Shown here: piece after piece, positions 505 to 3,526 of the stretch
How positions within the stretch are numbered: the first letter of the stretch is position 1
Layout of the letters: every line of letters starts with the position of its first letter
From: Candidatus Kapaibacterium sp.
Lineage (GTDB): Bacteria; Bacteroidota; Ignavibacteria; Kapaibacteriales; Kapaibacteriaceae
Assembly (NCBI GenBank): GCA_018882585.1
Contig: VFFB01000009.1
Coordinates: 1-40,231 of the forward strand
Reading direction: 5' to 3'
Length of the DNA stretch: 40,231 nt
Made by a program: the position numbers and the translations under genes
The notes under the pieces: model-generated
Told to the model about the DNA's origin: nothing
The model's input: only the letters and a program-made list of their open reading frames with translations
Databases searched by the model: none

Positions 505-539
505 TTTTTTTTTTTCAAGCAGAAGTCGGCATACGAGAT
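505..539 (+). other. Illumina P7 flow-cell oligonucleotide with poly-T spacer (assembly artefact)
   Basis: Eleven T residues (505-515) are followed by a 24-base match to the P7 oligonucleotide (516-539). The only mismatch is a T at 526 where P7 has A. Surface-grafted P7 oligonucleotides carry a T10 spacer, so both parts are explained. Translated in the purL frame it gives FFFFKQKSAYEI, very close to the FFFKQKTAYEI peptide that recurs in contaminated protein predictions. It marks the boundary between two unrelated DNA sources. Confidence 0.96.
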
Positions 540-540
540 C

Positions 541-1848
541 ATGCTGAGCGAGTCGCAAGAGCGCATGCTTGTTGTTGTTGCAAAGGGTATGGAAGCGAAG
601 GCCTCGGCGATCTGCGCGAAATGGGATGTGCCGTTCACGCTGATCGGCGAAGTCACCGACGATGGTGTCATCACGGTGTCGCGTCACGGGAACGTTGTTG
701 CCCAGCTGCCGGCAGCGTCGCTCGTATTGGGCGGTGGTGCGCCGGTCTATGTCCGCGGGCAGCAACGTCCGGCATACCTGGAAATGACATTGAGTCCGAT
801 CGACCACGGTCCGACGCTGCACGAGAACGAGTGTACCGAACTGCTTGAACGTCTGCTTGCCCAACCTACGATTGCAAGTAAACGTTGGATATTCGAGCAG
901 TACGATTCTCAGGTGATGACCAACACGGTGCAGCGCAGTGGCGGCGATGCCGCCGTGATCCGCATCAAAGAGCAGCCCGGCAAGGCCGTTGCTGTTACAA
1001 CGGACTGCAACAGCCGCTATGTGTACCTGAATCCTTACCGTGGTGCCATGATTGCCGTGGCCGAAGCCGCACGCAACTGTGCATGTGTCGGGGCCGTGCC
1101 GGTGGGCGTTACCAACTGTCTGAACTTTGGCAATCCGTACGATCCGGAGGTGTACTGGCAGTTTGCCGAGGCCATTCGTGGCATGGGCGATGCGTGCCGT
1201 GCATTCGATACGCCTGTTACCGGTGGCAACGTAAGCTTCCACAACGAGTCGCAGAATCATGCCGTCTTCCCGACGCCGACGATCGGCATGCTTGGCGTGA
1301 TCGACGATGTGCAACAAACGGTCGGCGCCGCCTTCACGGCCGAACATCAACCCGTATGGATGCTCGGTCCGCAGCGATCGGACCTTGGTGGCTCTGAATA
1401 CCTGAAGATGACCAAGGGAGTAATACGCGGCGACGCTCCGCAGTTTGATCTGGCCGAGGAGGTCGCGCTGCAGAAAGCCCTGATCGAAGGCATCCGCAAG
1501 GGCTATGTAAGCGCCGCCCACGACTGTGCCGAAGGCGGCTTGCTTGTTGCACTTGCCGAAATGACCTTCGCTCGTGGAGTGGGTGCTTCGGTATCGATTC
1601 CCTTCGAGCATCATGCCGGACATCTGTTCGGTGAAGGCCAAAGCCGTGTTGTTGTCGAGGTTCATCCGGAACATGTCGACGCGATGCGTTCGCTTTGTGC
1701 ATCACATGGCGTGCCGGTTACCGAGCTGGGCGTGACGCAGGACAGCTCGCTTGCTGTTGACGGTCTGGTTCATCGTGACGTTGCCGCTCTTCGGTCGATC
1801 TACGAATCGGCTCTGCCTACCGTACTTGCACGCGAGTATCACAGCTGA
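541..1848 (+). CDS. purL: Phosphoribosylformylglycinamidine synthase, PurL subunit, 5'-truncated
   Basis: PurL converts formylglycinamide ribonucleotide to the amidine using ATP and ammonia (fourth step of purine synthesis, cytosol). The 435 residues shown correspond to roughly the C-terminal 60% of a ~740-residue small-type PurL. Visible landmarks are LSESQERM at the very start, TNCLNFGNP, PVTGGNVSFHNES, PTPTIGMLGVI and AHDCAEGGL, in the usual family order. The N-terminal ~300 residues, including the first ATP-binding part, are missing because the contig is joined to P7 oligonucleotide sequence at about 540. The ATG at 541 is the internal Met of YEIMLSESQERM, not a true start. The frame running upstream through the T-run from a TTG at 502 is artificial. 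A DoxX gene follows after 29 bases. The gene is probably intact in the organism. Confidence 0.95.
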   Translation: MLSESQERMLVVVAKGMEAKASAICAKWDVPFTLIGEVTDDGVITVSRHGNVVAQLPAASLVLGGGAPVYVRGQQRPAYLEMTLSPIDHGPTLHENECTELLERLLAQPTIASKRWIFEQYDSQVMTNTVQRSGGDAAVIRIKEQPGKAVAVTTDCNSRYVYLNPYRGAMIAVAEAARNCACVGAVPVGVTNCLNFGNPYDPEVYWQFAEAIRGMGDACRAFDTPVTGGNVSFHNESQNHAVFPTPTIGMLGVIDDVQQTVGAAFTAEHQPVWMLGPQRSDLGGSEYLKMTKGVIRGDAPQFDLAEEVALQKALIEGIRKGYVSAAHDCAEGGLLVALAEMTFARGVGASVSIPFEHHAGHLFGEGQSRVVVEVHPEHVDAMRSLCASHGVPVTELGVTQDSSLAVDGLVHRDVAALRSIYESALPTVLAREYHS

Positions 1849-2315: not shown

Positions 2316-3526
2316 CGGAATTGCAGAGCCCGAGCGGGCGCGAGCCTGGTAGCGATGATGACCGGGGCCACAGAGGCGACAAGACTTGTCAGCAGCGACG
2401 TTGCCGCTACAACAAGATACGGCGTAAGACTGATGGCCACCGGAAGCGACGAAACATAGTAGATGGAACCGTCAAGTCGGATGAACTGCCATGTCTGTTG
2501 TGCAAGGCAGAAGGCCAATGCAAGGGTCGACCCAATGGCCCACCCGGAGAGTCCAACCTGTAGTCCTCGCCACAGAAAGATCTTGGTGATGTCTGCCGTT
2601 GTCATGCCTAAGGTCTTGAGGACGGCCAGCTGACGTGTTTTTTCGACGACCGTGATCAGGAGTGTTGCGATCACCGTAAACACGGCCACAAGACTGATAA
2701 GGCCCAGGATGATAGGAATGGGTTCCTTCTGCAGCTCGATCCACGATTCAATGGCCTGAAAGCGCTCGCGATAGGTCTGAACGTACAGCGACGAACGGCC
2801 ATGCAGTGAGGTTCGCAGTCGGTCTGCAACGGCATTGATGTCCGTTGACGAATCCGGATAGACGGCAACATAGGATCCCATCGCATCTGTCTGCCGCAGA
2901 ATGCGACGAAGGTGGAGCTCATCCATGAAGACGGCCGTCTCGTCGTACTGCTGCATGCCTGACCGGAACAGACCGGAGATGCGCGTTGCAGCAATGATCG
3001 GCGCGGTACCTGCGGCGTCGGCCGTGTAGATCACCATGGTATCGCCAACGTGTAGCGAAAGCCTTCGGGCAAGTTCGACGCCGATGACCGACTGTGGCTG
3101 CCTGGCCGACGTAGCACCGAAGGTACGTCCCAGCGTTACCATGGGCGTGATCGTTGTGGCGGCCCAGTCTTGCCTGGCACCGATCAGCAGGATACCGTCA
3201 ACACCGTCACGACTGCGGCCCAACGCCTCGCGTGATGCCACGGCCTGCGCGTGGCTTACGCCGTCGATGGTCGACGCGTGCTCGGCGAGCGCTCCGGCAT
3301 CAACCATGACGGATGACGCTAGGGAACGGATCTCAATAGGCGCAGTAAAGCGCGTCATCGTTGAGCGCACGGCCGCTTCGTAGCCTTCAAGAATGCTCAT
3401 GGCGACCACGACGGCAACGCAGCCCAGCGCTACACTGGCATACGACACGACGGTGGTGAAACGTGCAAATCCGTCATTCCGCAGCGATGCGGTAAAGCGT
3501 CGTGCGATGTACGTGGTAAGCGACAC
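2312..3526 (-). CDS. FtsX-like ABC permease of the lipoprotein-release (LolC/E, MacB) type
   Basis: A 404-residue protein with the classical layout: one N-terminal transmembrane segment (about residues 28-50), a large periplasmic domain, and three C-terminal transmembrane segments (about 275-300, 320-345, 365-390). The FtsX domain contains TRQLAVLKTLGMTTADITKIF, a cytoplasmic coupling-helix region typical of LolC/LolE/MacB permeases. Such permeases work with a LolD-like ATPase; none is encoded in this window. The GTG at 3526 is preferred because the longer frame upstream is the antisense of the preceding gene, and because it sits one base after that gene's TAA stop, so the two are translationally close. 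It is the last gene of the kbl operon. Substrate unknown; lipoprotein export to the outer membrane is the family-based guess. Confidence 0.85.
   Translation of the reverse strand: MSLTTYIARRFTASLRNDGFARFTTVVSYASVALGCVAVVVAMSILEGYEAAVRSTMTRFTAPIEIRSLASSVMVDAGALAEHASTIDGVSHAQAVASREALGRSRDGVDGILLIGARQDWAATTITPMVTLGRTFGATSARQPQSVIGVELARRLSLHVGDTMVIYTADAAGTAPIIAATRISGLFRSGMQQYDETAVFMDELHLRRILRQTDAMGSYVAVYPDSSTDINAVADRLRTSLHGRSSLYVQTYRERFQAIESWIELQKEPIPIILGLISLVAVFTVIATLLITVVEKTRQLAVLKTLGMTTADITKIFLWRGLQVGLSGWAIGSTLALAFCLAQQTWQFIRLDGSIYYVSSLPVAISLTPYLVVAATSLLTSLVASVAPVIIATRLAPARALQFR

Follow-up and report, generated by a model that had tools for sequence, protein, structure and literature searches.

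Public microbial genomes contain Illumina adapter contamination, which is concentrated at contig ends and lowers contiguity (Moeller et al. 2024, PMC11536531). The adapter screened in that study was AGATCGGAAGAG (PMC11536531), a sequence that the present assembly lacks. Here we examined a 40,231-nucleotide stretch of DNA from a Candidatus Kapaibacterium sp. assembly (the window, contig VFFB01000009.1), where, as in the published cases, a sequencer oligonucleotide near a contig end blocks the merging of true neighbours, in this instance the contig C95 and the window contig. Unlike those cases, the window carries only the P7 oligonucleotide with its T spacer, situated 504 bases inside the contig and with foreign DNA beyond it. 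The junction is a less common form of documented adapter contamination.

A T run and P7 within the contig

Read directly on the forward strand, the window contains eleven consecutive Ts at positions 505-515, followed at 516-539 by CAAGCAGAAGTCGGCATACGAGAT, which is identical to P7 in 23 of 24 bases with the sole mismatch at 526. No P7-like match was obtained in 100 shuffled sequences when three mismatches were allowed, and the site is the sole P7-like place in the whole assembly (2.79 Mb, 200 contigs). No T run longer than T11 occurred in the 1.56 Mb of the assembly examined. A preliminary description of this DNA had proposed that P7 with a T spacer was embedded in the contig, and these results bear it out; translation of the junction gave FFFKQKSAYEIMLSESQERM, confirming the peptide described there.

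Oligonucleotides grafted to the flow cell carry a spacer of ten Ts. The run at 505-515 (+ strand), directly 5' of P7, corresponds to this spacer with one extra T, ten being the modal length beside P7 in other records. The T run favours an oligonucleotide grafted to the flow-cell surface over a primer used in library PCR. Downstream of P7 there is neither an index nor a read-2 adapter, and the oligonucleotide runs straight into purL, which speaks against plain adapter read-through but not against the presence of the oligonucleotide. The TruSeq adapter core AGATCGGAAGAGC was absent from the assembly, and a search for the peptide KQKTAYEI and the T10-P7 string found none among the papers searched.

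Comparison of P7 with C95 separated the oligonucleotide from the genomic sequence. The 5' part of P7, CAAGCAGAAG (516-525, + strand), is not common to native purL except for its last G, such that bases 516-524 are attributable to P7 alone while 525 is G in both. Fourteen of the matched P7 bases are native, and the part belonging only to the oligonucleotide consists of CAAGCAGAAG together with T11.

A native purL joined to foreign DNA

Positions 526-1848 (+ strand) encode the C-terminal part of purL, a phosphoribosylformylglycinamidine synthase subunit, assigned as native from its reading frame and from family and homology searches. When this part of PurL was searched against its own assembly, a match was also obtained on C95, to the homologous domain in the N-terminal portion of the protein. 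This contig is 4116 bases long and carries purL codons 1-311 from a start at 3184; its 3' end reads exactly ...GAGCACGACATGTCGGCATACGAGATC (also given as ...GACATGTCGGCATACGAGATC). Its final 16 bases (GTCGGCATACGAGATC) are identical to window positions 525-540 (+ strand), and C95 followed by window positions 541-1848 yields an intact PurL of 746 amino acids with no internal stop. The joined protein aligns without gaps over 40 residues on each side of the seam with six relatives, which read ...MSAYEIMLSESQERM... at this point, as the joined PurL does. The native sequence is found elsewhere in the assembly without the oligonucleotide, continuing from the end of C95 into window position 541 onward.

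The end of C95 (L050) also defines the bases at the seam. Positions 526-539 (+ strand) read as native purL, TCGGCATACGAGAT; base 526 is T in purL and A in P7, and 527-539 match the terminal 13 bases at the P7 3' end exactly. As T526 belongs to native purL, the seam falls at 525/526; for the same reason the peptide reads KQKSAYEI in place of KQKTAYEI. The mismatch at 526 had been recognised before, but the C95 end shows that it is not an error in the oligonucleotide. Likewise, the proposal that joining occurred where native DNA resembles the 3' end of P7 was upheld, with the resemblance corrected from 8 nt (TACGAGAT) to 13 nt (CGGCATACGAGAT, 527-539). Across the 1.56 Mb examined this 13-mer was seen at one site only, the one present in C95 and the window, and a given 13-mer is expected to occur by chance 0.08 times in this genome; its rarity indicates that the sequences were joined where native DNA happens to match the P7 3' end exceptionally well. 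The view that any protein predicted across 502-600 is an artefact needs narrowing. The predicted start codon at 502 is false, but the artificial residues of the predicted protein are the first eight only, MFFFFKQK (502-525), and the genuine PurL frame begins at the serine encoded by 526-528.

The left flank (1-504, + strand) is a foreign gene fragment of Burkholderiales type, represented by an open reading frame at 3-398 and by homology that continues in frame. Bases 3-395 encode 131 amino acids, and the closest proteins in a named collection belong to Burkholderiales MAGs (75% protein identity). No family for the protein was found in Pfam or NCBIfam, no relative of the gene in a search of 21 related genomes, 13 belonging to the same family, and no second copy of the 504 bases in the assembly itself. 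The frame runs past an in-frame TGA (396-398) and tracks the relatives to about 498, where it is followed by the T run; a frameshift was considered and rejected, as the frame carries on beyond 398 with one in-frame stop. Relatives of the right side were present in 20 of the 21 related genomes, and the two sides of the junction come from different organisms. The earlier interpretation of an artefactual junction between two unrelated DNA sources thus holds, with the left side foreign and the right side a native purL whose upstream part is on C95.

The left-flank protein departs from residues invariant in 14 relatives at 1 of 40 such positions over the first 131 codons; over the last 36 codons the count is 4 of 10. 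When the gap-sensitive last column is omitted, the latter count becomes 3 of 9 (Fisher p = 0.016). The departures bunch in the last ~110 bases ahead of T11, which is what would be expected of a low-quality read beside the junction, the numbers being small.

T runs adjoining P7 in other records

A T run followed by P7 was detected in 2 of the 99 near-set genomes and in 6 of the 395 phylum-set genomes, the genome under study being counted in both, and in at least 120 stretches of viral contigs in IMG/VR (L201-L320). Among the matches listed, 115 of 122 IMG/VR instances have an index and adapter after P7. In the same listed matches 65 of the 122 start no more than two bases from a contig end, the modal run is T10 (range 9 to 22), and most of the remaining instances have fewer than 200 bases upstream, about a read tail. 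The T10 mode, the starts at contig ends and the short upstream tails together indicate that the T run belongs to the oligonucleotide; the bases beyond it plausibly come from base calling past the end of the strand. Several of the listed IMG/VR stretches share samples (e.g. 3300011254, 3300008517 and 3300007871).

Full read-through is illustrated by two assemblies. In a genome of the same family (L002, 1461-1563, at the end of G020:C110) the insert is followed by TruSeq adapter, index TATAAT, a reverse-complemented P7 that has a single mismatch, then A10 and an extended poly-G run. Five contigs of a 4.9 Mb assembly (G160; L194, L197-L200) begin or end with T10-P7-ATATCAGT-TruSeq adapter carrying one index; this is untrimmed adapter. 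The window resembles these records in that T10/A10 adjoins P7 in the same orientation to the insert, but it differs from them in lacking an index or adapter between P7 and the insert and in having unrelated DNA past the T run.

A rarer, embedded form without adapter was found among the matches listed in genomes (L192, L195 and L196) and in viral contigs (L203, L209, L231 and L248). As in the window, P7 abuts the insert directly and real-looking DNA lies past the T run. In L196 (region 1469-1536; G126:C1, about 911248-911280), T11 and an exact P7 stand beside an N in the interior of a 4.5 Mb contig, flanked upstream by ...ASMIVRTASKF and downstream by NGKSIIGVMTLAAEQGARL; judged by eye, these belong to an HPr-like gene, part of which is replaced by P7 and the N. 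There the same gene is present on both sides and the oligonucleotide fills a gap, whereas the two sides of the window derive from different organisms. We tentatively suggest that embedded T10/11-P7 joins without adapter might constitute a recurrent and under-screened class of artefact, in which chance matches to the 3' end of P7 meet the surface oligonucleotide, neighbouring sequence is spliced past the strand end, and the resulting cross-species joins are missed by adapter-core screens.

Possible routes to the join

The assembler split purL where 13 bases match the 3' end of P7, and the C-terminal contig was falsely joined to P7, T11 and 504 unrelated bases. We are almost certain that this represents a sequencing and assembly artefact, in which purL was cut and its second part linked through P7 and T11 to unrelated DNA. 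A sequence of events on the flow cell can be proposed. A purL strand without index or adapter, most likely from a truncated or misprimed molecule, would pair with a surface-grafted T10-P7 oligonucleotide, and copying across the latter would generate reads that exit purL into the reverse complement of P7 and A10-11. A native strand with its 3' end at 526 was probably extended on the oligonucleotide template, or else the consensus took the native base; either event would leave T at 526 rather than the A of the oligonucleotide. The Burkholderiales sequence may have come from a mixed or adjacent cluster, in bases called after the strand had ended, and the assembler would then have taken this path over the one leading to C95.

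Support for the flow-cell reading comes from the uniqueness of P7 in the assembly, the 16-nt overlap with C95, the foreign left flank, the rare 13-mer, the occurrence of T10-P7 elsewhere and the clustered departures. The missing index and adapter, both present in nearly all of the listed IMG/VR instances, weigh against it, and a run of T11 instead of T10 calls for phasing or an added base. Furthermore, nothing is expected beyond the T run of a strand attached through its 5' end, so the left join requires base calling to have continued past the strand as an additional step, for which the evidence is indirect and the numbers are small.

All of the candidate mechanisms, whether oligonucleotide extension or a merge over a short overlap, are artefacts. 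That the site is instead a natural locus whose likeness to P7 is accidental and whose left flank arrived by horizontal transfer is scarcely credible: bases 527-539 are native and single foreign genes do occur, but T11 plus CAAGCAGAAG is exactly the remainder of the oligonucleotide, the true upstream purL lies on C95 with an exact overlap at the seam, and the same T-P7 string recurs in unrelated records together with index and adapter. A real chimeric molecule from library preparation, in which Burkholderiales DNA was ligated to an A-tailed fragment with P7-T10 at its end (A10 and the tailing A making A11), would account for both T11 and the real DNA on either side, and L192 and L196 likewise have T11 with DNA beyond. 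We nevertheless consider such a chimera unlikely, given that T runs in the listed matches elsewhere vary from 9 to 22 and that the flow cell, rather than the library tube, is where T10-P7 is expected.

It is possible, if short of probable, that the join was purely computational, with an adapter-bearing end (P7 and the index base C) merged over ~15 bases and one mismatch with a contig starting GTCGGCATACGAGATC, and that no purL-P7 molecule ever existed. In a check that covered 142 of the 200 contigs (27 of the 142 at the first end only), the ends of adjoining contigs often shared exact overlaps of 9-20 nt, at a rate far above chance; a merged consensus could yield the native base at 526; and P7 beside an N in L196 appears as if from scaffolding or gap filling. 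However, the flank to the left of T11 would demand a second accidental merge over Ts alone, and embedded cases without adapter recur in unrelated assemblies.

The junction holds no biological finding; its value lies in database cleaning, as a worked example of how a contig can be cleaned. Positions 1-525 are best regarded as foreign or artificial sequence. Left uncleaned, the record credits a Burkholderiales gene fragment to this genome and could invite the inference of a horizontal transfer that never took place; it also makes purL look cut short, when C95 and the window contig together hold the intact gene. A screen for a T run followed by CAAGCAGAAG catches such joins, whereas the usual adapter-core screen does not.

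The frequency of the 9-20 nt end overlaps indicates that C95 and the window contig are ordinary cut neighbours. A fixed assembly k-mer behind their 16-nt overlap was unsupported, end overlaps among the contigs checked ranging from 9 to 76 nt. The 76-base exact terminal overlap is found between the end of C1 and the start of C120 (G000; L052 and L170), includes a G10 run, and represents an unmerged repeat end.
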